From positions 24,029,400 through 24,093,399 of the forward strand of contig CM049322.1 of NCBI GenBank assembly GCA_026874595.1: a stretch of DNA of 64,000 bases. The letters are read 5' to 3'. A program made the position numbers and the translations under genes. Position 1 is the first letter of the stretch, and each line of letters starts with the position of its first letter. Below the pieces are notes generated by a model. The model was not told the origin of the DNA. It worked only from the letters and a program-made list of their open reading frames with translations, and did not search any database. This DNA comes from Sipunculus nudus. Lineage: Eukaryota; Annelida; Sipuncula; Golfingiida; Sipunculidae. Positions 37,801 through 63,900 of the stretch are shown here, one piece after another.

Positions 37801-38076
37801 CATAACTATACGTATACTAATCATGTGTTAACACTTCATAACTTTGCGTATACTAATCATGTGTTAACACTTCATAACTATACGTATACTAATCATGTGT
37901 TAACACTTCATAACTTTGCGTATACTAATCATGTGTTAACACTTCATAACTATACGTATACTAATCTTGGTTAACACTTCATAACTTTGCGTATACTAAT
38001 CATGTGTTAACACTTCATAACTATACCTATACTAATCATGTGTTAACACTTCATAACTATACGTATACTAATCATG
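34814..38076. repeat. 36-bp satellite array, about 90 units
   Basis: The unit is tatactaatcatgtgttaac followed by acttcataactttgcg, carrying palindromes around gtatac and gtgttaacac. Variants are arranged in order: a run of about eight cataag units (35280-35510), a 252-bp (7-unit) block with a ttatcacct unit at 36963 and 37214, and alternating tttgcg/tatacg dimers at the right end. Because 36 is divisible by 3, long open frames arise automatically; they are not evidence of a gene. Confidence 0.95.
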
Positions 38077-38429: not shown

Positions 38430-39945
38430 ATTTTTAAAATATATTTCTTAAATATTTTGTTTCTAAATAATGATTTCTTTTATTAAAAGTATGGTATATA
38501 AATGCTGAAACATGGTTGATTAAAATTGGGTTTACATTGGACATAAGTTTAACAAATGATGATTTACCAAATCTTACAATATATTCTTTTCTAAGCATAT
38601 TATATAATGGAAAATTAACAGAAAGTTTCTTCAATATATGCATAATATACAGCATCTTTGCTCCCAGGGTATTTAATTATGTCTTCCTATTTCTACCTGT
38701 AACTGGTGAGCAGACGTTCAAAATCTGGCCAGACTTTTTCTATATCTTTCACTCTTGATCAGCGTTAAATATTTTTCTCCACATATCATTGAATTAAATG
38801 TGGCACAAGCTTTTCATTTGCCATTTCTTTTGACATAACTCAACAAATTATGTGATAAACCATCAGGCAACCTTTTTTAAAAAGTAAATAGAAATAGACT
38901 TTCATCTCCAACATCTTGCAAAATCCAAGAATACTCAAAACCAAGAGAAAACAAAATATTCTTAACCTTTGTTGCCAAATTAATTTTTCCTATTTCAGCT
39001 GAAAGATATAATTTGTTATATAGTCGTTTTGGATACCTATTATCTTGCATCAAGTATTTTTACCCAGTAAGATACACATTTTGACATGTAATTAATTTTC
39101 AGTGGTAAAGAAGCACATTCACAAAGGACAGCAGCGAAATTACAAAAGCTTTTAATTTTAAACATTTAAATATGATCTCTTCTGATATGACCCATAACTC
39201 ACTACCATAGCAAATTTATGGCATCAAAGTTTTGGTTTTGTCAAATAAAAAAAAAGATTCAATTACTGTCAGATATTGATAGTTTGAGATTAACCATTAA
39301 TAACCATTAATAACTTCAGGATTTCAACCTTTATAATACCATTTTGCATACCTTTTAGTAATTCCACCCTTTCTAAAAACCATAACGTTGGTTTTATCAA
39401 AATTAATTTCATTACATATTGATTACAAAACTTTTCGACTTTGTTAATTTGTCTTTGTATTGCTCCCACTGTATCCCCAAAACATACATCATCTGCGAAC
39501 ATTAACATGGATAAAGAAGTTGCTTCTGGACCTAAATATATATACTGCCTGATTTAATGGTTTCATAGTATAATATAGTTCATTCACTGAGAAAGTGAAA
39601 AGCACTGGTCTTATCATGCACCCTTGCCTGGTGCCTACAATACATCGAACCATATACTGTCAACCCCTCATTTGTTATAACACATGAAACTAATTTACTG
39701 TACATTAACTTAAGTATATGTAACATTTTACCATGAACTTCATATTTCTGTAACACATAAAAAGTATTTTATTTGGGATGCAATCGAACGTTTTAGAAAA
39801 ATAGATAATAATAGCATAAAATCTCCTTTTCTGTCGCGTTTTATGTTTCAATAACTGCCATAAAAGTGTGGCGAACCCCCTAGATGCGGCTTGACTTTCG
39901 TACGAATCCAGTAAGGTACGATGTCGCACATATTAACGAATTCGT
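38430..39945 (-). pseudogene. LINE (non-LTR retrotransposon) relic, reverse transcriptase palm and C-terminal part
   Basis: Minus-strand translations, across several frameshifts and stops, show the blocks of a non-LTR reverse transcriptase in order: FYAIIIYFSKTFDCIPNKIL, then GTRQGCMIRPVLFTFSVNEL, then LMFADDVCFGDTVGAIQRQI with the catalytic FADD near 39487. After these come VEKFCNQY, a Tyr-Gly-Ser-Glu-Leu-Trp segment, GKINLATKVKNILFSLGFEY, VGDESLFLF and a C-terminal SAHQLQVEIGRH block near 38.7 kb. This order is that of LINE ORF2 proteins. Many stops make it dead. I do not assign a clade. Confidence 0.85.
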
Positions 39946-42065: not shown

Positions 42066-42633
42066 TAATGAGTAACAAAACGTTGCAAAGTAAATGATAT
42101 ACGAATATAGTCTACGTAGTGTAAAAAGCGTTAAGCTCCTTCAAGTAGCCCCATTAATAGTAGTCGCTATATACAACATAGAAACATAATGATTCTGTTC
42201 ACGGAGTCAACTGTCTTATATATATATGTCGGGTCACCTTCATGAGCGTGCATAGAAGAGAAACAGAATTCCAAGTCTCCTAACCAAATAATATATGGCA
42301 CTGATTTTTACAAATCCAACAGCTCCCTGAAACCTTGGTCCTTCCTGAAAGAGTGATCAGTTACTGAGAGTATAATATTTTATAAATATTTTGTTAGTAA
42401 AAGCGACTAATAAGAGTAATTTGATATGTCATTTGACATAGAATTTCTCTCTTTTTTTATAATTGCTATTTTCCTATCAAAGTGTCTCAAGAATGGACCT
42501 ATATGTCATATCAAAGCGTACTTAATTAAGCAAACTAGTGTAGAGTTTACTTCTGTACATCGGTGGTTATTTATTCGTAATTTATTTATATGAACAAATG
42601 TTGGAGATCTGATGTAAGATAAAGGTGTGTGAT
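42066..42633. other. AT-rich DNA 3' of the PAN-gene terminal exon
   Basis: On the minus strand this follows the stop at 42634 and would hold the 3' untranslated region; no clear poly-A signal could be chosen. Otherwise featureless. Confidence 0.4.
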
Positions 42634-42980
42634 TTAGCTGAGGGTGAGGTGATCGGTTCCTGGTAGATCAGGCACCACATAGTAACACCGCCCGTTAACC
42701 TTGAGGTGCTGCGTGGGGTCCTCCAAGTAGTAAGCCACCATCACCTCACGCTGTTTGCAGATAAACCAGGCTGTATCTCCCCCTTCCAATTCCACATACA
42801 TTTCAGCTACCATACCATCAGCGTCCAAAGCTGCTACAACAACGGTTGATTCTAGTGTGTTCTCTGACATGCACATCCCATCAACCCCAGTACCATTCGG
42901 TTTGATGCTGCCGTACTCGAATTGGCACGTGCCCCGCAGCCTCGTTGTGGCGGATGACGATGTCAGTTGTTTGTCTCTCT
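42634..42980 (-). CDS. Exon 4 (terminal), C-terminal domain and stop
   Basis: The acceptor tacatgtag|AGAGAG at 42980 starts the exon in the same x|AG phase as exons 2 and 3. The frame stays open for 114 codons to a TAA at 42634-42636. After a short Ser/Thr-rich lead comes a compact domain beginning CQFEYGSIKPNG, with about four cysteines, acidic and Gly-rich middle segments (ELEGGDTAWFICKQ) and an aromatic end (GRCYYVVPDLPG). GC content is higher than in the flanks, as expected for coding DNA. I do not recognise the domain. With exons 1-3 the model gives about 307 residues: signal peptide, PAN-like module, two linker repeats, C-terminal domain. A secreted or extracellular role is an inference. 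Confidence 0.6.
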
Positions 42981-43226
42981 CTACATGTACAAGTGAGCAT
43001 GTAGAACGTGAAGGTACAGTAAAGCCCTACTTATTTAATTACTTAAATATTCAGCTCACATGTAAATCTATCGAACACAGTGTTAGAGAAAAGTTCAATA
43101 AAAACAGTCCTCTCTCTGTCATTTAAACCGATAGAAATGTTAAATGTTTAAATTTTGTTGAGTTCCGATATACATTCCCTGCTTAAATATATACATGCAT
43201 GTTGTATGTATGTATGTATGTATATA

Positions 43227-43403
43227 CAGTCGAACCTCTCCTTACGGGCACCTCTATTATAAGGATACCTCATATTTACGGCCACTTACAGACAGTCCCT
43301 TAAAAGTAGGTTTAGAAATCTATAACCTCCCTACTAAGGGCACCTCTCTGTTGCAGGCAAACTTTCAGGTGCCGTCAGTGTCCGTTATTCGGGGGGTCTA
43401 CTG
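43227..43403. mobile_element. pogo/Tigger-like MITE, 177 bp
   Basis: The ends are CAGTCGAACCTC and GGGGTCTACTG, flanked by TA on each side (43225-43226 and 43404-43405). The inside has ttacgggcacctc and gtgtccgttattcgg. The TA duplication and CAGT..GAACCTC terminus fit small Tc1/pogo-derived elements. Confidence 0.65.
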
Positions 43404-43440
43404 TACACACACACACACACATACATATATGTGTGTGCAA
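43404..43440. repeat. (CA)n microsatellite
   Basis: tacacacacacacacacata directly at the right end of the MITE, followed by tatgtgtgtg. Confidence 0.8.
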
Positions 43441-43868
43441 GGAATCCGTGGGGAGGGAAACACTAATACCTTGCTTCCTGAATGCATCTGAACCCTATTA
43501 ATGTTCGTGAAAAAAAATAGTAGTGTTTCCATTTTTGCGTATATACGTATTTGCTGCCAGAGGTAATATCGATACAATGGATCTAGCACCACTAGTCCCC
43601 TAAAAAAATACAAAATTCATTTATCCAGAATCCTTACTTTCACGAAGACCCTACAGCGATTTTAATGCATATTGACACATCCGGACATATGGGAACACCA
43701 TAGTTAAAAATCATATGAGAGCTTGTTTCCCTCATATACGTACATACGCGGACATTGAAACACTACAGCTTTATACGTTCTGGCATTTCCAGTCTAGCTT
43801 AACAAATAAATAAGTATATTTTCGTAAGCTTCTGCTTCCTGTAAAAAAATTCAGTAGAAATATCTTAC

Positions 43869-43982
43869 CAGTGCTGTGACCTCGAGCAGAATTTGGCCCG
43901 TCTGCGGTGTCCGGGGGCGTCGTGGGCCGGGGGTCCTTGCTCAGTGGTACAGTCAGCAACTCTGTCTGCTCAGACACTGGCT
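43869..43982 (-). CDS. Exon 3, 114 bp, Pro/Thr-rich linker (paralogue of exon 2)
   Basis: The acceptor is tgatgtag|AGCCAG at 43982 and the donor CACTG|GTAAGATA at 43869/43868. The exon is 114 bp and phase 1-1, the same as the exon at 50181-50294. The encoded motifs line up: QTELLTVPLSKD with QTELVNIPLSTD, and NSARGHSTG with PSARGRITG. Their separation by about 6.2 kb and their protein-level divergence indicate an old tandem exon duplication. Joining the preceding G to AG gives GAG (Glu), so the frame is kept. Both exons could be included together or used alternatively; the sequence alone does not decide this. Confidence 0.6.
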
Positions 43983-44099
43983 CTACATCAATATACAAAC
44001 ATGGCGTAGACACTGTAGATAATTATAGTTAAAGGACTTTGAGTCGAAACATAAATTGTATCCATACCATGTTCAAAAGCATGGAGTATGTAAATTCTG

Positions 44100-44100
<1 letters not shown>

Positions 44101-44148
<48 letters not shown>
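44101..44148. repeat. (TA)n microsatellite
   Basis: Uninterrupted tatatata run of about 46 bases. Confidence 0.9.
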
Positions 44149-44149
<1 letters not shown>

Positions 44150-44511
44150 TTTATACTAGGGGTCAAATTATTTACTAGGTATTCGATGGCTGGGGTAATA
44201 GAATTCGCACTTTTCTAATGAATAAACCCTGATATACTTGATAAAATCTTGAAAATGTTAATACTCTTTGTTCTTGCTTAATAAATTATATTTGTCACCA
44301 GGGAACTGTGACGTTGTTGTTTTATTCCATAATCAAGTAAGGACTACAAACAGATGAATGTTTCTGTAATTTGTTGTAAATTGATATGGAGTATCATGTA
44401 CAGATGTTTTTTTAAGGAAAGCCTGTCAGTGGCACTGTCTGTTAATGAGGATGCAGGTATCCATGCAATAAGAATTATATGTAATTATTAAGCTTTCTGG
44501 ATTTCAGGTTT

Positions 44512-44712
44512 CAGAAGCGGATCCAGGGGGGGGGGTCCAGGGGGTCCGGACCCCCCCTTTTTCACCCGAAGCAACCTTTTTTAAGGGGTTTTAGACGTAA
44601 TTTTGCGGCCTGGACCCCCCCTTTTCCAGAACTGATGACCTTTTTTTTTAGGAATTTCATTAGTCCTCCTAGGTTGGACCCCCCCTTTTCCAAAATCCTG
44701 GATCCGCCCCTG
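44512..44712. mobile_element. hAT-like MITE, about 200 bp, C/G-tract rich
   Basis: The left end is CAGAAGCGGATCCAGG and the right end CCTGGATCCGCCCCTG, imperfect inverted repeats. Inside are three ggaccccccc blocks with ttttcc. The CAG..CTG ends fit hAT-type MITEs; a clean 8-bp target duplication was not found. Confidence 0.6.
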
Positions 44713-44895
44713 GGTTTTATACGCACGAGGTTAGGGATAATCCTGAAGTCATAACCTGTGGTTAAGACATTAGAGTGAATTTCTGAGGTTCTATAACGAG
44801 ATTTCAACATTATGCCATTGAGGCACCGGCGGGGTTCGAACCGGGGACTTTCAGCACCGAAGTCAAACGCCCTTACCACTAGGCTACGTCCTACC
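44713..44895 (-). mobile_element. tRNA-headed SINE
   Basis: On the minus strand there is an A-box-like TAGCCTAGTGGTAAGG (44871-44886) and a B box GGTTCGAACCCC (44831-44842), followed by a body with gaaatctcgttatagaacc. The predicted acceptor and T stems do not pair, so it is a SINE head and not a tRNA gene. It abuts the neighbouring MITE. Confidence 0.7.
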
Positions 44896-45146
44896 CCATC
44901 ATGTATAGATATTAGCGTGAGAACTTAGTTTGGAGAACCCAGGTGTCATATTTGATGTAGGTTTAAGACCCATGTCTTGACCGTTCCTGTTGTAATTATT
45001 TATTTCAAAGGCAACGCATCTGCAAACTTGATTCCCCCCCCCCCCCCATGTTTTTCACTGGAAGCGTGTCCATTTTAGTATTCATGCAATTAATGACAGG
45101 CCGCGTAGCAGTGTGAGAAGATAGGCCAAAAGGCGGTCAGGATGTG

Positions 45147-45823
45147 TGACGTCAGCAGGCGTATATAACCTGTGAATGCTGGAAGGACTTCACAATCGCC
45201 TAGGTCAGCCCGTGATTGTCCGTGTCTGATCAGCTGAAAGACGATGTTCCTGAGCGTAAAACGTCAGTGTCTGAGGACGGCCTCGTAGATACCTCTCTAA
45301 CGGACTTGAAAGTGGGTATCGTATTAACAGGACTTGTGAACTGCGATGTGATTCTACAGTGATGGGGGTCCAGTAACAGACCAGGACAATATAAACGCGA
45401 ATCGTGAGTGGTAGTGACTATTATCGTGCACGGTGGCATATTCAAGTACATAGTGCTACATGGATCCAGGAGTATTCTGCTCTGTAAGACATTTCTCAAG
45501 TGTTCTAACAGAGAAGGCTGTGAGCCTATTTGTTAGTGCTTTCAGGATTTTGCCTTGAATGGCGAGCGCGTACTTCAGTGGAGAACTGAGTTGTTTAGTG
45601 GCGTGAAGCGCTGGCAAGTTTGTGGATAGACTGAACTGATAGCTGACATTTTAAAGTCACGTGTGCGCGTAGGTCGTGTGACCAAAAGCCGTGTAAACAA
45701 GTGGAAATCTCGTGTGTATAATGTTCATTCAGGAATAAACCGGACTTAGTGACCTTATGTAATTATGTGGACTCTTGTGATCATCAGTACATATGTGTGG
45801 AACGCCTCTCCAGAGAAGTGTAA
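45147..45823 (+). promoter_or_regulatory. Possible CRE/TATA promoter and untranslated first exon
   Basis: tgacgtca (near 45147) lies 15-20 bases ahead of gtatataa (near 45163). A transcript starting about 30 bases later would run through GC-balanced sequence to a consensus donor AGT|GTAAGTTTG near 45820. No long open frame lies between, so it would be a non-coding first exon or an LTR-type promoter. Not linked to any plus-strand exon. Confidence 0.3.
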
Positions 45824-46593
45824 GTTTGCTTTTAAAATATTTATTATTTAGTTTACTCATGTCTTTTTCACCTTTTTGGGTGTATGTGTGAGTTTCAGCC
45901 GGTTTAGGACACTGTTAAAAGAACCTGGACGTCCATTCATTCAGGGGTGTGACAATTATTTACTCGTCTTTATACTTATATACAGTTTGTTGATATATAT
46001 TGTAGAATTTGAGTCTTGTGGAAAAAGAAAGCCATTTTACAGCCACCATTACTTAATAACTTAATATCCAGTCAATACTAAATTACAAAAGCTACATACG
46101 TTCAGTGCCACTTATTTTAGACATGCAGTATTTTATAATGTATAATATATCAGACTGGCCCAGCACAGTGTGAATGAGCAACTCTACTATACGTGTGAAT
46201 GTATGTTTGTGCATGTACAAGAGAGGCTGTTGAGGTATCTGGCCATTGACATTTCAGCCCGCCTACAGTCTTATAAGAGGAATCATTGTTTTATGGTACG
46301 GAATTTTTAACTTCCACTCTTCGCTGAGGTAGAATACAGCAGCTTTCTGTGGTTTCGTCTGCCGTCGAGGTCTGCCATGAACAGTGTAGACTAAAGTTAG
46401 GGTGGGTAGTCCAGATGAAAATTTTGACAAATCCTGTTCCAGGGCCGGCCCGCCATTCTTCGAAAAGATATGTGTCTGAAAAATGGTAGCCAAAGCACGA
46501 AGACACTTTGACAATGACAACTTGGTGAAATATGACCAGGATCTTAAGTGCCAATTTGTCCCACTCTGGCCTGATGTACTCTGCATGTCAATA

Positions 46594-46760
46594 ACGTGTT
46601 ACGGAACCTAATAATAACAGATCACGATATCGTGACGAGCACAAACCCTTGTTATGGCGACAAAAACATTAGATTCTGCAACACTAGGCAGCGTGAAATG
46701 TCTAGGGGAATAAAGAAGTCAGTGTTTTTAGCTCAGCTGACTGTAAGTCATCTGAGCTAT
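46594..46760 (+). repeat. Interspersed repeat end with TAGCTCAG palindrome
   Basis: The palindrome tagctcagctgactgtaagt...ctgagcta occupies 46729-46759. The part before it matches the reverse complement of 3403-3560. Confidence 0.65.
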
Positions 46761-46835
46761 AGCGATCACCCTTTGTCCGTCGTCCGTCTGTCTGTCTGTC
46801 CGTCCGTCCGTCTGTCCGTCCGTCCGTTTACCCGA
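46760..46835. repeat. GTCC/GTCT simple repeat
   Basis: A run of gtccgtctgtctgtctgtcc-type tetranucleotides follows the TAGCTCAG palindrome. The same sequence in inverse complement (gacggacagacag) precedes the palindromes at 3373, 8140 and 11644. Confidence 0.8.
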
Positions 46836-48830
46836 CACAAATCGTAACCGCTTGACCTAGAAACTTGTAACTTGACATTCTGAGAGGTCCATGAAAAATC
46901 TCCTTGGAAACCAGAAATGAGGTCTCTGTTACCCATATCCTTCGAGCTATGGGGCCCGAAAGTACTCCCCAGAATAGTAAAAAAATTCATACAAAAACTT
47001 CAATATCTCATTAACTACATCACTGATGGTCATGATTTTTGGCATACATATTGATCATGAAATGTTCCATCAGTTCCTGCAGACTGGTGGCGCCACCTGT
47101 ATTTTTCGATTTTTTACGAAATTTTTTCTCTATTTTTTAGACCTTTAAAAATGTGAACATCTGTTAACAGGGCACAAATCGTAAAGACTGGACCTAGAAT
47201 CTTCATTCTTGACACATTGAGAAACCTATGAAAAGTCTCCATGGAAATTAGAAATTAGGTCTCGGTTACCCATATCCTTCAAGCTATGGGGCCCCGAAGT
47301 ACCCCCCAGAATAGTAAAAAATTTCATACAAAAACTTCAATATCTCATTAACTACATCACAGATGGTCATGATTTTTTGCATACATATTGATCATGAGAT
47401 GTTCCATCAGTTTCTGCAAACTGGTGGCGCCACCTGTATTTTTTCAATTTTTTACAATTTTTTTTCTCTATTTTTGAGAACTTTAAGGATGTAGTTATCT
47501 GTCAACAGGGTACAAATCGCAACGACTGGACCTAGAATGTCATTCTTGACACAAAAGGATACCCATGAAAAGACTCCATGGAAACCTAAAATTAGGTCTC
47601 TGTTACCCATGTCCTCTGAGCTATGGCACTCCAAAATACAGCTCAGAATAATTGAAAATTTGATACAAAAGCTGAAGTATCTGAACAACTAATGCAGAGA
47701 TCACCATAATTGTTTGCTTGGATATTGGTCACTGAGTGTTTCATCAGTTTCTGCAGACTGGTGGCATCATCTTGATTTGTTCGAGTGTTTTTACGATTTT
47801 TTTTCTCTATTTTTGAGACCTCTAAAGATATGAACATCTGTTAACAGGGCACAAATCATAACAACTGGACCAAGAATATTCATTCTTGACACACAGGGAG
47901 ACCCATGAAAAGTCTCCATGGAAACCTGAAATTAGGTCTCTGATACCCATATGCTTTATGCTGTATGGCTCCAAAATACCCCCCAGAATAATGAAAAATT
48001 TGATACAAAAACTGCAGTATCTCAATAACTACAACACTGATCTTCATTATTTTTGGCATACATATTGATTATGAGGTGTTCCATCAGTTTCTGCAGACTG
48101 GGTGCACCACCTCTATTTTTTTTTTATTTTTTTACGAATTTTTTTCTCTATTTTTTGAGACCTTTAAAGATGTTGTTATCTGTCAACAGGGTACAAATCC
48201 TAACAACTGGATCTAGATTCTTCATTCTTGTAATGCAAGGAGGCCCATGAAAAGTGTCTGTGGAAACCTGAAATTAGGTCTCTGTTTCCCATATCCTTCA
48301 AGCTATAAGACTCCGAAGTATCCCTCAGAATAATGGAAAATTTGATACAAAAGATGAAGTATCTGAACAACTAATGCAGAGATCACCATGATTCTTTGCA
48401 TGGATATTGATTACGGAGTGTTTCATCAGTTTCTGCAGACAGGTGGTGCCACCTATATTTTATTCAATTTTTCGAATTTTTGTCTCTATTTTTGAGACCT
48501 TTAAGGATGCTGTCATCTCTTAATGTGGAACAAATTGTAACAACTGGACCTAGAATCTTCATTCTTGAATGCAAGGAGACCCATGAAAAAGTGTCTGTGG
48601 AAACCTGAAATTAGGTCTCTGTTACCCATATCCTTCAAGCTATAGGACTCAGAAGTATCCCTCAGAATAATGGAAAATTTGATACAAAAGCTGAAGTATC
48701 TAAACAACTAATGCAGAGATCAACATGATTCTTTGCATGGATATTGACCATGTGTTTTATTAGTTTCTGCAGACTGGTGGAGCCAGCTGAATTTTTTTAA
48801 AGTTTACGCATTTTTTCTCTATTTTTGAGA
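46836..48830. repeat. ~338-bp tandem repeats, about six units
   Basis: The landmark acagggcacaaatc or a variant recurs near 47167, 47505, 47844, 48186 and 48520. Each unit also has tccatggaaacctgaaatta, ctgttacccatatccttc, cagaataatg and ggtggcgccacctgt. Related single or double units in the opposite orientation lie at 10555-10930 and 33250-33560, so this is an interspersed family that became tandem here. Confidence 0.85.
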
Positions 48831-48889
48831 TATATAAATACAGACACAATCTTGGCCTGTTGGTTAATCTGTGTGCTGCTACAGGTGAA

Positions 48890-49500
48890 TGGGTATATAC
48901 TACCATTCAGATGATAAAATTTCCTTTTACGAATCTCTTCCCAGTCAGCTGAGCGTCATGACCCATGGGTCACTTGTTTTGTCAACAAATAATTATTATT
49001 GTTATTTTTAGAACAATCCTAACATTACAATACACTAAATCAACACAATTTGCAGTATTTAAGACAGAACAATAATAAAAATATACATCACCAGAGTCCG
49101 GATCCGAGGCTTTGATTCCTGGATACCACAAATGTCTCAGTCCAACAAGAGTCTTTTAGCACAAATAATCCACGTGATCAGTTCAAGTAAATCTTCCCGG
49201 TGAAAGGCCAATTAAATCTCGAAGACAATCTGTTGTAATTCAGAAGTTCAGTTCAGGTAAAATCCCAAAGACAAACTGACGACAATCTATATAAAATCTG
49301 TATAAAGTCCATAGAATATCTGTAACTATGCAATTATCGATGTAGATCCCAAGACTGACGAGAAAGTCGCACCCTTTTGTGTCCGCTGATATTTTCCTTC
49401 TACTCGGCAAACACAGCCCCTATTTATAGCCTTTTTCCCCGAAGTCCAGAAGCTTCTAGTCCGAAACATTCCAAAGAACAAACTCGAATCATTTAGACTA
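48890..49500 (-). repeat. LTR- or promoter-like interspersed repeat
   Basis: On the minus strand a TATAAATAG box near 49420 follows a GC-balanced stretch, and about 250 bases on the sequence joins the family shared with 195-415. It ends in gtgacccatgggtcatgacg then ctcagctgactgg. This looks like the promoter part of a retroelement terminal repeat, but no partner repeat or primer site was found. Confidence 0.4.
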
Positions 49501-49784
49501 CAACGAACACGCTGTCTTTACACTCTGCGTGTAACCAGAGTTCAACAAGTGCGGTTCCCATAGCAACGCACAGGGCTGGCGCCTAACACGAATCAGAACG
49601 CGAGGCACATGTCAAGCCATGCTAATTCCTGCGCATAATAAACAGATACATATAGCAAACGTACTTGGTCATTCGAGACCTAATGGTATGTGATAAGTTC
49701 CACGATATTCGCTTCTAAATTTCTTTTCATGAGGTTATTCAGAGCTGATCACAGAATCAGTGAGATCAATGAGAATTCTGGAGC

Positions 49785-49892
49785 AGTGAGTTGTATCAGT
49801 CATATATTAAATACCAGTGAGTCGTATCCGTCATGTGTTTAATACCAGTGAATTGTATCAGTCACGTTTTAATGCCAGTGAGGTGTGTCAAA
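49785..49892. repeat. ~31-bp tandem repeat, about 3.5 units
   Basis: The unit is ccagtgagttgtatcagtca followed by tgtgtttaata, with base changes between copies. Confidence 0.7.
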
Positions 49893-50180
49893 CATTTACG
49901 TTTCCGTAGTTTAACGGATCCTGTCAGTCATTCTCTGTGCGTGTGTGCGAAGATCATGCGACTTGTATCGATGGATTTACATGTCTGATGCCTTGATCCT
50001 TGAAGTGTGCATAATCCGTCACAGTGGCCCATAAATTAAAAATTATATGGCCAAGGAATGTGTGCTTTCCCTGATGTGACCATAATAGGTGGCATGTTAA
50101 AGAATATTTTGCAAATGGTGTATCATGACAACTGAGGTTTTAACTTATTTTTTCTGACATGCTTATTTAATTTATCTTAC

Positions 50181-50294
50181 CGGTGATGCGTCCTCGAGCA
50201 GACGGCGGTCTGTCCGTGGTAACCAGGACAATGGAGGGCGGCGTGTCCGTGCTCAGTGGAATATTCACAAGCTCTGTCTGCTTTAAGGGGGACT
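50181..50294 (-). CDS. Exon 2, 114 bp, Pro/Thr-rich linker (paralogue of exon 3)
   Basis: The minus strand shows an acceptor gtgtgcag|AGTCC at 50294 and a strong donor CACCG|GTAAGATA at 50181/50180. The exon is 114 bp with phase 1 at both ends, so it can be skipped or repeated without changing frame. It encodes 38 residues with the motifs QTELVNIPLS and DRPPSARGRITG, rich in Pro, Thr and Ser, and probably an extended linker. The acceptor lies directly against a (TG)n tract. The same length, phases and motif order recur in the exon at 43869-43982, so the two are duplicates. I do not recognise the domain. Confidence 0.6.
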
Positions 50295-50339
<45 letters not shown>

Positions 50340-50340
50340 A
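50295..50340. repeat. (CA)n-(TA)n microsatellite at an exon border
   Basis: About 16 CA units followed by atatatata. On the minus strand this is a (TG)n tract immediately before the exon 2 acceptor. Confidence 0.9.
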
Positions 50341-50350
50341 ATAGTGGTAC

Positions 50351-50694
50351 TTAGGCAAAAAAAAATTAAAGGTTTGGTTCTCAGGCACCGCCCGCATCAA
50401 TTTTAAACCCCCGCATCAAAAATTTTTATTTTGATTTTCAATAGAAACTTATCAATTTTGAGCTGCATCCGCTCGGACATTTCTTTCAAGAAGATAAAAT
50501 CATACAATTTCCTTTATTATGTAGTGCTTTTACTTATTTAGCCAAATAAATATGTTATTATCATGCTTTTCCCTTATAATTTGACATTTTTATCGAAACA
50601 TACCAAAAAAATAAAATAAAAAAAAACCGCCCGCCCGCATTGATTTTCTGAAAAAAGTGCCTGAGAACCATACCTTTTTTTTATTTTGGCCTTA
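50351..50694. mobile_element. MITE-like inverted-repeat element, about 344 bp
   Basis: Left arm ttaggcaaaa...aaaggtttggttctcaggcac; right arm gtgcctgagaaccatacctt...ggcctta. Both arms are followed inward by cccgcatcaa or its inverse. The interior is AT-rich. No target duplication could be fixed. Confidence 0.6.
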
Positions 50695-50769
50695 GTCATC
50701 ATATTTTGCAAAAAACTGATGGCAGGATCTCAGTGGCTAACCAGAGCATTTCTATTTTATGTAGAAAGA

Positions 50770-50975
50770 ACTAAATTAAGTTTTTTCCCAGGCATTTTTT
50801 ACTAATTAATTTCATACCACATGCTCAGAGCGTGTGACATTCTTCAGATGATGTAGCCTAATACAGTACTAGTATTAGGCTATTAGGCTACTTCATCTGT
50901 AGAGTGCCACACGCTCTGAGCATGTGGTACAAAACTAATTATTAATTAATTGCCTGGAAAAAACTTGATTTAGTG
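50770..50975. mobile_element. Nearly complete palindrome (foldback MITE), about 205 bp
   Basis: The arms actaaattaagttttttccc... and ...ggaaaaaacttgatttagtg pair over about 95 bp, including accacatgctcagagcgtgt and its complement; the centre is near 50870-50880. It is followed by a (TA)n run at 50988-51035. Confidence 0.75.
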
Positions 50976-50983
50976 TATTCTTC

Positions 50984-50987
<4 letters not shown>

Positions 50988-51035
<48 letters not shown>
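50988..51035. repeat. (TA)n microsatellite
   Basis: Uninterrupted atatatat run next to the palindromic element. Confidence 0.9.
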
Positions 51036-51039
<4 letters not shown>

Positions 51040-54000
51040 TAAAGAGAACATTATAATGAAAAAAAAAACAAGAACCTGTTTTTTTTTTCAAGTATATGTC
51101 GTACTTCTGCTCAAGAGAAGTTGTTTAATGTGCGAGGTCAGATTTCTTTATGAATATTAATATTAAATTTATCATCGAGGGGGAATAAATTATATAAAGA
51201 AAAATTGCGTTACAAAACACGTGTTACCTTCCTTCCTTTTTGACTTTTTCCTTTTTTCTTTTACCTGACGACGGACTGAAAAACACGGTAAACGACTTTA
51301 ATCTTCCAGTTGATCGATTGTATTATATCATCATGTGTATTTTAATCACCAGGATTCAAAATTACGATTCTTTTGTTTTAAGGTATAGAATACATAATGG
51401 TCGTCCATCAAAGAAATCAAATATCGTATCAAACAGGTCAGTCCTTAAACGGTGCATTAAAGAGAGTGATTCACGTCATAAAAGTGAGTCATTAAACGGT
51501 GCAATAAAGACAGTGATTTACATAATACAAGTCATTCATTAAACGGTGCCATAAAGACAGTGATTCACTTAATACAAGTCATTCATTAAACGGTGCCATA
51601 AAGACAGTGATCCACTTAATACAAGTCATTCATTAAACGGTGCCAGAAAGACAGTGATTCACTTAATACAAGTCATTCATTAAACGGCGCCATAAAGTCA
51701 GTAATTTACATAATACAAGTCATTCATTAAACGGTGCCATAAAGTCAGTAATTTACATAATAGAAGTCATTCATTAAACGGTGTCATAAAGACAGTAATT
51801 TACATAATACAAGTCATTCATTAAACGGTGTCATAAAGACAGTGATTTACATAATACAAGTCAGTCATTAAACGGTGTCATAAAGACAGTGATTTACATA
51901 ATACAAGTCATTCATTAAACGGTGTCATAAAGACAGTGATTTACATAATACAAGTCATTCATTAAACGGTGTCATAAAGACAGTGATTTACATAATACAA
52001 GTCATTCATTGAAAGGTGTCATAAAGACAGTGATTTACATAATACAAGTCAGTCATTAAACGGTGTCATAAAGACAGTGATTTACAAAATACAAGTCAGT
52101 CATTAAACGGAGTCATAAAGACAGTGATTTACATAATACAAGTCAGTCATTTAACGGTGTCATAAAGACAGTGATTTACATCATACAAGTCAGTCATTAA
52201 ACGCTGTCATAAAGACAGTGATTTACATAATACAAGTCAGTCATTAAACGGTGTCATAAAAACAGTGATTTACATAATACAAGTCAGTCATCAACCAGTG
52301 TCATAAAGACAGTGATTTACATAATACAAGTCTGTCATTAAACGGTGTTATAAAGACAGCGATTTACGTCTTACGTAATTAAACAGTGGCATAAAGACAG
52401 TAATTTACATCATACAAGTCTGTCATTAAACAGTGTCATAAAGACAGTGATTTACGTCATACAAGCCAGTCCGTAAACGGTGTCATAAAGACAGTGATTT
52501 ACATAATACAAGTTTGTCTTTAAACGGTGTAATAAAAACAGCAATTTACATCATACAATTCAGTCATTGATCGGTGCCATAAAGACAGTGATTTACGTCA
52601 TACAAGTAAGTCATCAAACAATGTCGTAAAGACAGCGATTTACATTATACAAGTCAATCATTAAATGGTGTCATAAAGACAGTGATTTACATCATACAAG
52701 CCAATCATTAAACGGTGTCAAAAAGAGAATGATTTATATCATACAAGTCTGTCATTAAACAGTGTCATAAAGACAACGATTTCCATCATAAAAGCCAGTC
52801 CTTAAACGGTGTCATAAAGACAGTGATTTACAAAATACAAGTCAGTCATTAAACGGAGTCATAAAGACAGTGATTTACATAATACAAGTCAGTCATTTAA
52901 CGGTGTCATAAAGACAGTGATTTACATCATACAAGTCAGTCATTAAACGCTGTCATAAAGACAGTGATTTACATAATACAAGTCAGTCATTAAACGGTGT
53001 CATAAAAACAGTGATTTACATAATACAAGTCAGTCATCAACCAGTGTCATAAAGACAGTGATTTATATAATACAAGTCTGTCATTAAACGGTGTTATAAA
53101 GACAGCGATTTACGTCTTACGTAATTAAACAGTGGCATAAAGACAGTAATTTACATCATACAAGTCTGTCATTAAACAGTGTCATAAAGACAGTGATTTA
53201 CGTCATACAAGCCAGTCCGTAAACGGTGTCATAAAGACAGTGATTTACATAATACAAGTTTGTCTTTAAACGGTGTAATAAAAACAGCAATTTACATCAT
53301 ACAATTCAGTCATTGATCGGTGCCATAAAGACAGTGATTTACGTCATACAAGTAAGTCATCAAACAATGTCGTAAAGACAGCGATTTACATTATACAAGT
53401 CAATCATTAAATGGTGTCATAAAGACAGTGATTTACATCATACAAGCCAATCATTAAACGGTGTCAAAAAGAGAATGATTTATATCATACAAGTCTGTCA
53501 TTAAACAGTGTCATAAAGACAACGATTTCCATCATAAAAGCCAGTCCTTAAACGGTGTCATAAAGACAGTGCTTTACATCATACAAGTTTGTCTTTAAAC
53601 GGTGTAATAAAAACAGCAATTTACATCATACAATTCAGTCATTGATCGGTGCCATAAAGACAGTGATTTACGTCATACAAGTAAGTCATCAAACAATGTC
53701 GTAAAGACAGCGATTTACATTATACAAGTCAATCATTAAATGGTGTCATAAAGACAGTGATTTACATCATACAAGCCAATCATTAAACGGTGTCAAAAAG
53801 AGAATGATTTATATCATACAAGTCTGTCATTAAACAGTGTCATAAAGACAACGATTTCCATCATAAAAGCCAGTCCTTAAACGGTGTCATAAAGACAGTG
53901 CTTTACATCATACAAGTTTGTCTTTAAACGGTGTAATAAAAACAGCAATTTACATCATACAATTCTGTCATTAAACGGTGCCATAAAAACAGTGATTTCC

Positions 54001-56591
54001 ATAATACAAGTCTGTCGTTAAACGATGTCATAAAGACAGTGATTTACATCATAAAATTCCAGTCATTAAACGGTGTCATTAAGACAGCGATTTACATTAT
54101 ACAAGTTAATCATTAAACAGTGTCATAAAGACAGCGATTTACATCCTCAAAGCTAATCATTAAACGGTGTCAAAAAGAGAGTGATTTACATCATACAAGT
54201 CAGTCATCAACCAGTGTCATAAAGACAGTGATTTACATAAAACAAGTCTGTCATTAAACGGTGTTATAAAGACAGCGATTTACATCTTACGAGTCAGTAA
54301 TTAAACGGTGTCATAAAGACAGCGATTTACGTCATACAAGTCTGTCATTAAACGGTGTCATAAAGACAGCGATTGACATTTTACAAGCCAGTCCTTAAAA
54401 AGTGTCAGAAAGACAGTGATTTACATTAAACAAGCCAGTCCTTAAACGGTGTCATAAAGACAGTGATTTACGTCATAAAAGTCAGTCATCAAACAGTGTC
54501 ATAAAGACAGCGAATTACATTGTACAAGTCAGTCATAAAACGGTGTCACAAAGACAGCCATTTACATCATACAAGCCAATCATTAAACGGTGTCATAAAG
54601 AGAGTGATTAATATCATACAAGTCTGTCATTAAACGGTGTCATAAAGACAGCGATTTACCTCATACAAATCTGTCATTAAAAGGTTCCGTAAAGACAGTG
54701 ATTTATGTCATACAAGTCAGTCCTCAAACGGTGTCATAAAGACAGTGATTTACATTATACAAGCCAGTCATTAAACGGTGTCACAAAGACAGTGATTTAC
54801 ATTATACAAGTCATTCATTAAACAGTGTCATAAAGACAGCGATTTACATCATACAAGCCAGTCATTAAACGGTGTCATAAAGACAGTGATTTACATCATA
54901 CAAGTCTGTTATTAAACGGTGCCATGTAGACAGTGATTTACATGATACAAGTCATTCATTAAATGGTGTCATAAGGACAGTGATTTACATCATACAAGTC
55001 AGTCATCAACCAGTGTCATAAAGACAGTGATTTACATAATACAAGTCAATCATTAACCGGTGTCATAAAGACAGCGATTTACATCATACAAGCCAGTCAT
55101 TAAACGGTGTCATAAAGAGAGTGATTTACATCATACAAGTCTATCATTAAAAGTTTCCGTAAAGACAGAGATTTACGTCATACAGGTCAGTCCTCAAACG
55201 GTTTCCATACAGAGAGTGATTTACATCATACAAGTCTGTCATTACACGGTGTCATCATGACAGTGATTTGCTTCATACAAGACAGTCATTAAACGGTGTC
55301 ATAAAGACAGCGATTTACATCATACAAATCTGTCATTAAAGGGTTCCGTAAAAACAGTGATTTACGTCATACAAGTCATTCCTCAAACGATGTCATAAAG
55401 ACAGTGAATTACATTATACGAGCCATTCATTAAACGGTGTCATAAACACAATGATTAACATTCAACAAATCAGTCATTAAACGGTGCCATAAAGACAGTG
55501 ATTTTCGTCATTAAAGTCAGTCATCAAACAGTGTCATAAAGACAGCGATTTACATTGTACAAGTCAGTCATTAAACGGTGTCATAAAGACAGCGATTTAC
55601 ATTGTACAAGTCAATCATTAATCAGTGTCATAAAGACAGCGATTTACATCATACAAGCCAATCATTAAACGGTGTCATAAAGAGAGTGATTTACATCATA
55701 CAAGTCTGTCATTAAACAGTGTCATTAAGACAGGGATTTCCATCATACAAGCCAGTCCTTAAACGGTGTCATAAAGACAGTGATTTATAAATATCATACA
55801 AGTCTGTCATTAAACGGTGTCATAAAGACAGCGATTTACATCATACAAATCTGTCATTAAAAGGTTCCGTAAAGACAGTGATTTATGCCATACCAGTCAG
55901 TCCTCAAAGGGTGTCATAAAGACAGTGATTTACATTATACAAGCCAATCATTAAAAGGTTCGGCAAAGACAGCGATTTACGTCATACAAGTCTGTCATTA
56001 AAAGGCTCCGTAAAAACAGTGATCTGCGTAATTCAAGTCAGTCCTCAAATGGTGTCATAAAGACAGTGATTTACGTCACATAAGTCTGTCATTAAACAAT
56101 GTCATAAAGACAGCGATTTACATTATACAAGTCAATCATAAACATTGTCATAAAGACAGCCATTTACATCACACAAGCCAATCATTAAACGGTGTCATAA
56201 AGAGAGTGATTTATATCATACAAGTCTGTCATTAAACGGTGTCATAAAGACAGCGATTTACATCATACAAATCTGTCATTAAAAGGTTCCGTAAAGACAT
56301 TGATTTATGCCATACAAGTCAGTCCTCAAACGGTGTCATAAAGACAGTGATTTACATTATACAAGCCAGTCATTAAACGGTGTCATAAACACAGTGATTT
56401 ACATTCAACAAATCAGTCATTAAACGGTGCCATAAAGACAGTGATTTACGTCATAAAAGTCAGTCATCAAACGGTGTCATAAAAACAGCGAATTACATTA
56501 TACAAGTCAATCATCAACAGTAACATAAAGACAGCCATTTACATCATACAAGCCAGTCATTAAACGGTGTCATAAAGAGAGTGATTTACAT

Positions 56592-58992
56592 GGTAATTGT
56601 GCAAAATAACGGACCCATATTTCTCTCTCTCACAAATAAGTGTGACCTCATTTCACTGATTTTTTTTTTTTTGCATGATAAAGTTTACGATCCGGCGCAT
56701 CTAATGATATCATATTTTTGTATGTTATTTATATATTTTTTTTGCTACAAACTGTCGAAAAAGTGTAGTTTGCTGAAAATACCCAAAATGACGTCGTTTC
56801 AAAGACATTCTGAGCCGACGTCATTAATCCACAGTAATATACATATATACCATGTTAAACATTTAGATGATGTCTTATAAAATTTACAGTCAATATATAA
56901 TATTACCCATTTATGTTTATACTTTTTTTACCTCTTTTTATCCACATTTCACTTGATGTACGTTCAAGGTGACGACGCCCTGCCGCCAGAACGTAAACAA
57001 ATGTTGAGTGTCACGTGACAAGTCATGCACTTAAAATCAAGAGAGACACGGGAGAAACATGTTGGTCCGCATTATTTTACAACATATTTTGTTATACTAA
57101 CATAATAATATCCTTATTTTTAATAAAATAATTATAAAGGGTTACAACATTTATTAGTTATAATTAATGACATAATTAAGGTGTGATCTCTTTTTTATAA
57201 ACTGTGTGACCACATATAGTAGTTAGAAATAGTAAAAAAAAGGTGGTGTGACCACATTTAAATATATTCTTACATCATCATATCTCTTATTTTTTTCTAA
57301 ATTTAATCCTGAATTTTTTTCAAACAAAGGCCATATTTTTTACCAATAAAAAAAGTGTGACCACCTTTTATTTGACCAGCCATATAAGTTTGTATAATAT
57401 AAATAATATTTTAAAATCTGGTCACATATGGTGTGACCACATTTTTAAAAAATAAATTTTGCCAAAAATAAGTTGTGACCACATTTTACTTGACCAGCCA
57501 TATAAGTTTGTATTATATATAGAATATTATAAAATGTGGTCACATATGGTGAAATATCACATTTTTCACCAAAGAATATTGACTAAAATAAGGTGTGACC
57601 ACATTTTATTTGACCAGCCTAATAAGTTTGTATTATATATATAATATTATAAACTGTTGTCACAAATGGTGTGACCACATTTTTCACAATAAATATTGAT
57701 AAAAATAAGGTGTGACCACATTTTATTTGACCAGCCATATAAGTTTGTATTATATATAGAATATTATAACATGTGGTCACATAAGATGTGACCACATTTT
57801 TTACCAATAAATATTAACAAAAATAAGGTGTGACCACATTTTATTTGACCAGCCATATAAGTTTGTATTATATATATATATATATATTTAATATATTATA
57901 AAATGTGGTCACATGGTGTGACCTCATTTTTTTACAAAAAATATTCACCAAAGAATATTAACAAAAATAAGGTGTGACCACATTTTATTTGACCAGCCTT
58001 ATAAGTTTGTATTTTATATATAATATTATAAAATGTTGTCACATATGGTGTGACCACATTTTTCACAATAAATATTGACAAAAATAAGGTGTGACCACAT
58101 TTTATTTGACCAGCCATATAAGTTTGTATTATATATATAATATTATAAAATGTTTTCACATATGGTGTGACCACATTTTTTACAATAAATATAAACAAAA
58201 ATTAGGTGTGACCACATTTTATTTGACCAGCCATATAAGTTTGTATTATATATATAATATTATAAAATGTGGTCACATATTGATGATATGCCCAACATGG
58301 TCCCGTGTTTCTCCCGCGTACGTCTCGATTTTAAGGGCTACCGGTCTGTTACTCGTGGGGAGGGGATGTTCCCATCTGATTGTCCTTACATAAAGTAGTC
58401 TAACAGGACAAAAAAAAATAAATAAAATAAATGACATGTCTAAAATGAAGTCTTTATACTCTGTCCACAAAAATGACTGTTTATTACACAATTTATATTA
58501 ATTTGACATATAAAACGTACATAGAGGCAAAGCTGAATAGAGCAAGAGTTAACGTGATCAGTCGAATACACTTACAGACGACAGTTGCATGTTTATGTTT
58601 TTGGCGGCACGAAGTCGTCAAATTTATTAAATCTTGGGAAATATGGATATTTAGAGGTAAAATTGTCTCTCTATCTATGCATAAAAAGATATATTGACTG
58701 TAAATTTTGTTAGAAATCATCCTTTTGTTTAACATGGTATGCACGTACAGTACTGTGGATTCATGACGTCGGCTGAGAACGTCTTTGACACGACGTCAAT
58801 TTGGGTATTTTAAGCAAAAATCCCTTTTTCGACAGTTTGTAGCAAAATATATTAATATCTAACATACAAAAATATTGTATCATTAGATGCGCCGGATCTT
58901 CAACTTTTACATGAAACAGTTTTTTCATTGAAATGTGGTCACACTTTTTTGTGAGACCATGTAAGATGGGTCCGTTATTTTGCACGATTACC
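56592..58992. mobile_element. Foldback-type DNA transposon, 2,401 bp, inserted in the 47-bp satellite
   Basis: The ends are GGTAATTGTGCAAAATAACG and its inverted partner ...GATTACC, with terminal inverted repeats of about 305 bp (56592-56898 and 58690-58992). Both arms keep similar translations because they are copies of each other. It is flanked by atttacat at 56584-56591 and 58993-59000. The satellite monomer contains this octamer, but its phase on the right restarts exactly 8 bases back, which is what an 8-bp target duplication would give. A second, broken inverted stretch (near 57030-57065 and 58284-58336) suggests the arms were once longer. No transposase is present. An 8-bp duplication would allow hAT, Merlin or P types, and I cannot choose among them. 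Confidence 0.8.
57290..58275. repeat. Internal array of eight ~118-bp repeats in the foldback element
   Basis: The landmark TGTGACCACATTTTATTTGA recurs near 57355, 57473, 57593, 57711, 57829, 57971, 58090 and 58208. The one longer unit (about 142 bp) is explained by a TA expansion. Most units contain a palindrome: AATGTGGTCACA, a 5-base loop, then TGTGACCACATT. Short minus-strand frames here merely repeat with the unit. Confidence 0.85.
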
Positions 58993-60670
58993 ATTTACAT
59001 CATACAAGTCTGTCATTAAACAGTGTCATAAAGACAGCGATTTCCATCATGCAAGCCAGTCCTTAAACGGTGTCATAAAGACAGTGATTTATATCATACA
59101 AGTCTGTCATTAAAAGGTACCGTAAAGACAGTGGTTTGCGTAATACAAGTCAGTCCTCAAACGGTGTCATAAAGACAGTGATTAACATTATACAAGTCTG
59201 TCATTAAACGTTGTCATAAAGATAGTTATTTACGTCATACAAGTCAGTCATCAAACAGTGTCATCAAGACAGTGATTTACATCATACAAGTGTCTTTAAA
59301 CGGTGTTATAAAAACAGCAATTTACATCATACAATTCTGTCATTAAACGGTGTCATAAAGACAGTGATTTCCATAATACAAGTCTGTCGTTAAACGATGT
59401 TATAAAGACAGCGATTAACATTAAAAAATTCAGTCATTAAACGGTGTCATAAGAACAGCAATTAACATCATACAAGTCTGTCATTAAACGGTGTCATAAA
59501 GACCGTGATTCACATCATATAAGTCTGTCATTAAAATGTTCCGTGAAGACAGTGATCTGCGTAATACAAGTCAGTCCTCAAACGGTGTCATAAATACAGT
59601 GATTTACCAAATACAAGTCAGTCCTCAAACGGTGTAATAAAGACAGTGATTTACATAATACAAGTCAGTCATTAAACGGTGTCATAAAGACAGTGATTTT
59701 CATCATACAAGTCTGTCCTTAAACGGTGTCATAAAGAGAGTGATTTATATCATACAAGTCTGTCATTTAAAGGTTCGGTAAAGACAGCGATTTACGTCAT
59801 ACAAGTCTGTCATTAAAAGGTTCCGTAAAGACAGTGATCTGCGTAATACAAGTCAGTCTTCAAACGGTGTCATAAATACAGTGATTTACCAAATACAATT
59901 CAGTCCTCAAACGGTGTCATAAAGACAGTGATTTACATTAAACAAGCCAGTCCTTAAACGGTGTCATAAAGACAGTGATTTATATCATACAAGTCTGTCA
60001 TCAAACGGTTCCATAAAGACAGCGATTTACATTATACAAGCCAGTCATTAAACGGTGTCATAAAGACAGTGATTTATATCATACAAGTCTGTCATCAAAC
60101 GGTTCCATAAAGACAGCGATTTACATATGACAAGTCTGTCATTAAACGGTGCCATAAAGACAGTGATTTACATCATACAAGTCTGTCATTAAACAGTGCT
60201 ATAAAGACAGTGATTTACGTCATACAAGTCAGTCATCAAACGGTGCCATAAAGACAGCGATTTACTTCATACAAGTCTGTCATTAAACGGTGCTATAAAG
60301 ACCGGGATTTACTTCATACAATCAGTCATCAAACGGTTTCATAAAGACAGCGATTTACATATTACAAGTCTGTCATTAAACGGTGCCATAAAGACAGTGA
60401 TTTACATCATACAAGCCTGTCATTAAAGATGCCATAAAGACAGCGATTTACATCATACAAGCCAGTCATTAAACGATGCCATAAAGACAGCGATTTACAT
60501 TATGCAAGTCAGTCATTAAACGGTGTCATAAAGACATTAATATATTTTTATTAATATCATTAATATATTATTTATGGTGAATGTAGTTATCTCTAACACG
60601 AGCATATGATAACGTGGATTCGAAGGAATTACACCAGGTACAGAACATAATTATAATTAAGAGTACTGAC

Positions 60671-61019
60671 TTTGATAAACATTGCTTCCTTTTTCCCGCT
60701 TGTAGCGGCACGTGTTTAGGTTTGTACAAGGGGAAGTGAGAACACAGATCAGTTTCCGGTCATCGTCTGTGTAAGAGAATCGCGCACAGTCACGATGGGC
60801 GGCACACAGGAGGGCGCACTCCGAGTAATCGTCTACTTGTTTTGCTGTCAGCACGTGAACCTTGACGTATTCCACATCACTAGGCAGACGCTGGTAAATG
60901 GCACCTGATGTCTGAGACAGTGTGGCCACTACAGGTCCACAGGCGGCGACGTATACAAGTATCGTCTCAATCAACACCATGCTGACCAATTGTCTGACGG
61001 TGGGTTTATAGATAAACAT
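60671..61019 (-). CDS. Exon 1 of a secreted PAN/Apple-like domain protein (candidate 4-exon gene)
   Basis: The frame opens at an ATG at 61019 and has a second ATG at 60980. The second is followed directly by a hydrophobic stretch (MVLIETILVYVAACGPVVA) that reads as a signal peptide, so translation may begin at residue 14. Residues about 65-110 look like a PAN/Apple module: ECALLCAAHRDCARFSY, then a further Cys-Val-Leu and a Cys-x6-Cys pair. Known PAN modules are disulphide-rich ligand-binding domains of secreted or surface proteins. The open frame itself runs on to a TAA at 60657. I end the exon at an AAA|GTCAGT donor (60671/60670), because that gives phase 1 and joins in frame to the two downstream 114-bp exons. 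The C at donor position +3 is unusual, so a single-exon 120-residue protein remains possible. Ligand and tissue are unknown. Confidence 0.65.
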
Positions 61020-62568: not shown

Positions 62569-63235
62569 CCCAGTAGTTTACAGACTAAGGAAACGTACCG
62601 ATACTTCCAATATTACCTCTCATTAGTAATAGTTTTTCAGACAAACTTGACGATATAAGTAACGTTTTTGCCTCAGTAAAATTGATGGGTTCTTATGGGA
62701 TGTTACTTTTGTATCGGACAGTTCTGCTGTTTCGTTGTTATGATCTTATACTCGTCATCCACATTAGCCCAGACAACACGAGTCAGTATAGGCACTTATA
62801 TTGGGCGGTAAGCCTTACTTGAGTTGTGATACAAGCCAAATCGAGGAATGCATTGCAATGGTTTTCCATCATGTTGCATTCATATCATGGTAAACAGCCC
62901 ATAACATTTACATTATGCTACGAATAATGAATTAACACAAAATAATACATTTGAACTCACAACCAAAACTGAAACTCCGTCTCTATGGTGACGAATCTTT
63001 TCCTTTTTTCGCGTATACAAGTTGGCTGCATCCAGTAACCCGTGGGAGCCATGCTTGTGTTCATGCGGTCAGAAACACAACAAACATGCGGAGAGATTTA
63101 CCAATTTGCTTAATTAAAACGGAATTTTACTCGTTCATGTTATATTTAAGTGTGTATGTGTGTGTGTTGTTAGAATGTACACAAAAAAGCTACCGATTGG
63201 TCTCGTTTGTGTCAAGTGACAGTGTACTGGTATAG
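62569..63235. other. Intergenic DNA
   Basis: No domain or splice-bounded exon was recognised in the short frames here. A (TG)n stretch lies near 63150. Confidence 0.45.
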
Positions 63236-63239
63236 GCCA

Positions 63240-63900
63240 TGAGGCGTTGTCAAATACAACGGAAATGTTTACATCCTCAGAGAGCTTTAAAGTGCCTTCC
63301 TCGCTGAAGGATGTTTCCTGTTGACCTGGAGATAGATTCCTCAAATCAGACTGACGTTCAAGCGGCAGCTGACCTCGATTCAATTCGGCGGTGTTCTGAA
63401 TAACGTCCTGACTCATTCGAGGGCCAATCGGAAAATTCCGACTACATTCGAGCCGCATTCGAGCGACAAATCAAAAGGTTCCTACGTAGTTACGGCATTC
63501 CAGCTGAATTCTTTTACTATTTAAATTCTGGTATGAATTGAAGTGGGTTGCCGTTTCTGTTCTCCCTCAAATGCGATCAGAATATTTTGAATAATATTGG
63601 AATGCAGTAAGAATATTTAGAAATGCAGTCATAGTTGCAGTAAGAATAATCTTTGAATGCCGCCCGACATTTCTCCACTTCGAATGCACCTCGAAAGTTT
63701 TGAGCATGAGCAAAACATTCTGGCCGGCCAGAAGAACCGGCCTGAATGTTTGGAATGTACTCAGAATGCAGTCATGTCAGAATTTTAAGAATGCACTTCG
63801 AATATCTAGGAATATACAAAGAATTTTTCTTTCGACAGCATTCCGGCTGATTCCGCCTCTAGTGTGACGGGGGTTTAAGCTATACCTTATGTACGGAATG
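63240..63900. repeat. Interspersed repeat rich in gaatgcagt/agaatatt words
   Basis: Many variants of gaatgcagtaagaatatt and cattcgag occur on both strands, with an inverted pair around 63440 and 63830, and the segment ends in ctagtgtgacgggggttta. It looks like a decayed DNA-transposon repeat; boundaries are uncertain. Confidence 0.45.

Follow-up and report, generated by a model that had tools for sequence, protein, structure and literature searches.

A candidate four-exon gene for a small secreted protein in repeat-rich DNA of Sipunculus nudus

Can four short open segments, spread over 18.4 kb of repeat-rich DNA, be the exons of a single gene, when the largest of the gaps between them is mostly tandem repeat? 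The question is raised by a stretch of 64,000 nucleotides from the sipunculan Sipunculus nudus (GenBank assembly GCA_026874595.1, contig CM049322.1, positions 24,029,400 to 24,093,399 of the forward strand), here called the window, whose numbering is used throughout unless the contig is named. An earlier inspection of the letters alone, referred to below as the sequence-only reading, had proposed a gene for a secreted protein on the minus strand between 42634 and 61019. The follow-up analysis favors, with a probability of about 0.7, a gene of about 18.4 kb that would encode a small secreted protein made of a signal peptide, a PAN-like module, two 38-residue spacers rich in Ser, Thr and Pro, and a C-terminal module with four cysteines that belongs to no recognized family.

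Exons and modules of the predicted protein

The four segments all lie on the minus strand. Exon 1 (60671–61019, 349 bp) contains a hydrophobic leader and a PAN-like module with six cysteines and ends in phase 1; exon 2 (50181–50294), which encodes a Ser/Thr/Pro-rich spacer, and its homologue exon 3 (43869–43982) are both 114 bp long; and exon 4 (42634–42980) encodes a C-terminal module of about 100 residues, closed by a TAA stop codon (42634–42636). Spliced in silico, they give 307 residues plus the stop, with no internal stop or frameshift in the 307 codons, and the three junctions all have GT/AG borders and lie in phase 1. The sequence-only reading had given the same coordinates, the same pair of 114-bp exons, the same frame and stop and the same borders and phase, all of which were borne out; its remark that symmetric phase-1 exons are typical of modular extracellular proteins also applies, since exons 2 and 3 are in phase 1 at both ends. 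The exons are richer in G and C (49–63%) than the introns (32.5–39%).

Two start codons are available in frame. Position –3 is C at the first ATG (61017–61019) and A at the second (60978–60980), which also has G at +4; both of these bases at the second ATG are favorable for initiation. Because of this better context, and because a start at the second ATG places the hydrophobic stretch at the extreme N-terminus (as judged by hydropathy), position 60980 is the likelier start and a product of 294 residues is preferred. At the other end, two AATAAA signals (42570–42586, minus strand) begin 48 and 59 bases past the TAA stop, and given the density of this hexamer on the minus strand (1.6 per kb) they are weak markers when taken alone. 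The joined frame has a 3-base periodicity of 3.50, a value attained by 5 of 2000 control sets, each composed of four random non-repeat segments and scored at the best of its 27 frame combinations; the control is lenient, because its segments were not selected as open frames. Exons 1 and 4 are moreover concordant in frame by the same measure (3.02 vs 1.31 and 0.45).

In the full model, exon 1 shows similarity to the Pfam families PAN_4 (PF14295; E 1.4e-4, 22.2 bits against a curated cut-off of 27) and PAN_1 (PF00024; E 3.1e-4, 21.0 bits against 21.4), and among PDB sequences it matches micronemal protein 4 (4a5v, E 7.5e-4). A Pfam scan, run at E 0.01 on 41 of the 63 open frames of at least 80 codons, returned three families with one frame each, the third being coronavirus NSP4, whose match on exon 1 (E 0.0074) was taken as chance. 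Six cysteines (68, 72, 78, 92, 98 and 104) lie in the PAN part and one more in the leader. Folding from single sequences gave a mean predicted local distance difference test score (pLDDT) of only 33.8 and 43.9, and the better of these models predicts a helix at 62–74 and strands at 79–84 and 89–94; together with the cysteines this arrangement would be compatible with the PAN family pattern. In a Foldseek search with this low-confidence model, too poor to be informative, nothing matched at E 0.001, and none of the best 50 of 491 matches was named as a PAN or apple chain. Secreted proteins of the PAN/Apple kind appear to share with the predicted product a leader followed by one PAN-like module, a C-x3-C motif in the predicted helix succeeded by cysteine-bearing strands, and a phase-1 intron border; the product differs from them in its Pfam scores, which stay under the curated cut-offs, and in the attachment of a C-terminal module without a recognized family.

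Exons 2 and 3 are homologous. When the exon 2 protein was compared with the whole window by tblastn, it matched itself and exon 3, the latter with 50% protein identity (E 1.4e-6); at the DNA level 75 of the 114 bases are identical without a gap, a local alignment (71.8% over 110 bp) stops 8 bases beyond the donor, and of the three frames that of the model alone is open in both exons. The spacers contain no cysteine, and S, T or P account for 39 of the 90 linker residues. Near 45.4 kb a possible third spacer exon in a decayed state was considered and not accepted, as it amounts to a 20-base match (p 0.004 against exon 2 and 0.368 against exon 3, by simple base shuffles) with a tblastn E of 0.70 in the window.

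Since both spacer exons are symmetric in phase 1, either could be skipped without a frameshift. Exon 2 would be the likelier of the two, because a (TG)16 run on the transcribed strand (50298–50329, minus) abuts its CAG acceptor, so that (UG)16 occupies the place of the polypyrimidine tract. TDP-43 binds UG runs, and a run of this kind in CFTR has been linked with skipping of exon 9 (PMC3985631). The two cases have in common a UG run immediately upstream of the acceptor, and they differ in that exon 2 is symmetric, so that its skipping would preserve the frame; regulation of exon 2 may be proposed by analogy.

For exon 4, with its four cysteines, Pfam offered only MsrA_helical (E 0.027, far under the cut-off and at chance level), and no match was found among PDB sequences at E 10. 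Searches of the 1.43-Gb source genome (153 contigs) at E 0.01 found only the locus itself, both for the exon 4 protein (one candidate scored) and for the exon 1 protein (two candidates scored), in searches that could miss distant copies; tblastn at E 0.5 found no second copy of the gene in the surrounding 280 kb. No relatives were confirmed among 12 and 7 pattern matches in viral contigs, none of exon 4 among 118 pattern matches in prokaryote genomes, and none of exon 4 in phages, as is expected of collections that do not cover animals. Scans for tRNAs and against Rfam (gathering threshold) gave nothing.

The proposed link of exon 1 to the other exons

Exons 2 and 3, being homologous, most likely belong to one gene, and the same is most likely true of exons 2–4 as a whole, to judge from this homology, the matching phase and the strong donors: exons 2 and 3 are each followed by GTAAGA (5.0 and 5.2 bits, within the top 0.23% and 0.21% of the 3878 GTs of the minus strand, by scoring matrices for donors and acceptors). 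We infer that exon 1 is joined to them because its strand and phase agree and the frames inspected offered no better first exon. One secreted modular gene is the best reading of the four segments.

Several observations weigh against this reading, above all at the exon 1 donor (60665–60670, minus strand), the weakest link of the model. This donor, GTCAGT with C at +3 and preceded by AAA, scores 1.25 bits, a value reached by 4.5% of the 3878 GTs, and the frame of exon 1 stays open beyond it for a few more codons before it meets a stop at 60657; an AATAAA follows at 60552. Since the frame continues in this way, a short read-through form of exon 1 ending at 60657 is possible. The three acceptors are mediocre, 12.5–18% of 3007 AGs scoring as high. 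The frame of the model ranks second, not first, of the 27 combinations by periodicity, the top one (3.55) having exons 2 and 3 shifted by one base and being interrupted by a stop in one or both of these exons; taken singly, exon 4 alone has significant periodicity (p 0.029, against 0.083, 0.147 and 0.260 for exons 1–3). Both PAN scores are under the Pfam curated cut-offs, the similarity being still significant, and protein constraint between exons 2 and 3 is weak (dN 0.42 and dS 0.65 by NG86; frame score p 0.16 against shuffled columns), which would fit a spacer.

The strongest competing explanation, though unlikely, is that exon 1 forms a separate gene for a short secreted PAN protein ending at 60657, exons 2–4 being part of another gene whose first exon has gone unseen. 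The early stop with its AATAAA, and a donor that at 1.25 bits falls short of the other two (5.0 and 5.2), speak for such a separation. The same donor, on the other hand, is the sole site above 1 bit within 60610–60799, its phase 1 fits exon 2, and the PAN match finishes just before it. Exon 1 apart, three minus-strand frames of at least 80 codons are listed from exon 2 to the end of the window; two of them (57932–58201 and 58493–58795) lie inside a mobile element and the third (63135–63470) had no Pfam match, though a first exon shorter than this may exist.

That the locus is instead a decaying or lineage-specific pseudogene, with open frames from which no protein is made, is very improbable: the absence of other genome copies at E 0.01, the weak donor, the loose constraint on exons 2 and 3 and the repeat-dense surroundings would suit it, but 307 codons without stop or frameshift, even numbers of cysteines in the modules and coding periodicity argue against it.

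An ordinary secreted-protein gene in a repeat-rich genome, with a predicted exon 1 junction, is therefore the likely verdict. Of the claims made by the sequence-only reading, the choice of the GTCAGT donor as the weak link agrees with the donor scores. The single transcript over 18.4 kb is probable for exons 2–4, tied by homology, donors and phase, and is qualified at exon 1; the signal peptide and PAN-like exon are retained for the hydrophobic leader and the significant similarity, with the reservation of scores below the curated cut-offs.

A split minisatellite in the predicted first intron

Intron 1 (50295–60670, minus strand, 10,376 bp), between exons 1 and 2, is largely occupied by a 47-bp tandem array in two blocks, the left at 51428–56589 (107 copies when at least 31 of 47 matches are required) and the right at 58999–60545 (32 copies, in the orientation of the left block). 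Together the blocks make up 6,709 bp, or 64.7% of the intron, so the description of a 10.4-kb first intron that is mostly a 47-bp satellite was correct. The wider phrase “satellite-filled introns” suits intron 1 but neither intron 2, of which arrays of at least 300 bp cover 32% (a 337-bp array at 46836–48830), nor intron 3 (0%). The 47-bp monomer of the region 51428–60545 may itself consist of two diverged halves, as Tandem Repeats Finder also reports periods of 25, 22 and 26 bp.

Between the blocks lies an element with terminal inverted repeats (TIRs) at 56592–58992 (2,401 bp), whose ends start with GGTAAT. The inverted repeats are about 410 bp long and 78% alike, with 24 of the 25 terminal bases matching, and the element is flanked by an 8-bp target duplication, ATTTACAT, at 56584–56591 and 58993–59000. 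When the element is removed, a monomer with 45 of 47 matches is restored. This exact empty site and the target duplication imply that one array was split by the insertion, and on these features it is split by what appears to be a non-autonomous DNA transposon. The satellite of the sequence-only reading is thus real, its two blocks being one interrupted array. Two separate satellite arrays were rejected, given the shared orientation, an identity that is much the same inside the blocks as between them (0.833, 0.817 and 0.822) and the empty site. The element shares with non-autonomous TIR transposons that make 8-bp duplications its long inverted repeats, its exact duplication and the lack of a transposase-sized frame (the longest is 101 codons); it differs from them in its GGTAAT ends and its internal tandem repeats (117 bp). 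Duplications of 8 bp presumably suit hAT-, Merlin- or Mutator-like groups. Neither a further copy of the element nor the 47-bp unit was found elsewhere in the surrounding 280 kb.

Tandem arrays are common in this region. Counting arrays no shorter than 300 bp, they take up 29.5% of the window, 18.4% of the 100 kb on its left side and 13.1% of the 116.5 kb on its right side. Among 541 sliding windows as long as intron 1, those overlapping it included, 5 had an array share at least as high as that intron. The array of intron 1 is unusually dense yet of a local kind, and arrays are local background, not special to the gene.

The array might nevertheless be under selection within a transcribed intron, either because variants that create splice signals are purged or because it aids splicing or chromatin, an idea to which we give very little credence. 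No AG occurs in the monomer consensus as read on the strand of the gene, and AG density in the blocks is 11–21 per kb, where base content would predict 49–52. Across 136 monomers, 21 variants creating GT on the transcribed strand were observed, fewer than the expectation of 81.5 (permutation p 0.005), and on the opposite strand GT shows no depletion (49 observed against 33 expected). GT is, however, the most extreme of eight dinucleotides examined, with p about 0.04 after correction, the copies are non-independent and dominated by a few common variants, and arrays are frequent elsewhere in the region. Variants that create AG show no avoidance (99 were observed where permutation predicts 87), and purging of cryptic acceptors was discarded, there being no sign of it. 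The depletion of donor-like GT, marginal after correction, does no more than hint at transcription of the array as an intron.

Arrays in comparable positions have been described in other animals. Satellite-like arrays borne by Helentrons occur in animal genes in oyster (PMC7492417), and in Drosophila the introns of kl-3 and kl-5 contain satellite-like arrays and reach megabase size, which is called intron gigantism (PMC6508621). The shared trait is a tandem array in a non-coding part of a coding gene, and the differences are the 47-bp unit and an intron of 10.4 kb, not megabases; at 10,376 bp, intron 1 is well short of the megabase size of intron gigantism as given there (PMC6508621).

Other repeats and frames were noted nearby. 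A 36-bp array at 34813–38076 (about 91 copies, 95% alike) has one frame open for 695 codons (35887–37974) and is a repeat, probably not a gene; a 51-bp array at 26417–27151 (14.4 copies, 98% alike) lies inside a plus-strand open frame of 275 codons that is probably spurious, because the period is divisible by 3. A long imperfect array at 21398–25622 has periodicities of about 237 bp and 700 bp, with a self-match of 87% over 3.5 kb. Reverse-transcriptase-like fragments at 39290–39553 (minus strand) and at about 24180400–24182050 of contig CM049322.1 have SLSMLMFADDV in common (by eye), and they are probably derived from one family of long interspersed nuclear elements. To the left of the window (CM049322.1, about 23932100–23946900), minus-strand frames of 592 and 309 codons resemble leucine-rich repeats with a leader, and an Ig-like frame lies beside the second (by eye); these frames could form a local cluster of secreted or receptor genes.

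Origin and meaning of the locus

If the one-gene model is right, the spacers would descend from a single symmetric phase-1 exon that was duplicated, and they would keep two folded modules apart, with O-glycosylation probable, and the disulfide-bonded PAN module may bind protein or glycan partners outside the cell. The 47-bp array would have grown within intron 1 as a local minisatellite before the TIR element split it, and the whole would be removed with the intron by splicing. A more ambitious combination holds that exon 4 is a lineage-restricted, single-gene cysteine module joined by phase-1 exon shuffling to the PAN exon via the duplicated spacer, that exon 2 is a cassette set by (UG)n and that the array has been purged of donor-like GT; taken jointly, these proposals are doubtful. 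Were inclusion of exon 2 indeed set by (UG)n, it would vary the length of the spacer.

The component parts of the locus are familiar, and general understanding is unchanged by it. What it offers is a plausible gene model at a place where, amid dense repeats, automatic annotation may divide the gene or overlook it, and two clean small histories: a tandem exon duplication in which the exons survived and the introns diverged, and a minisatellite whose age relative to a transposon insertion follows from an exact empty site.

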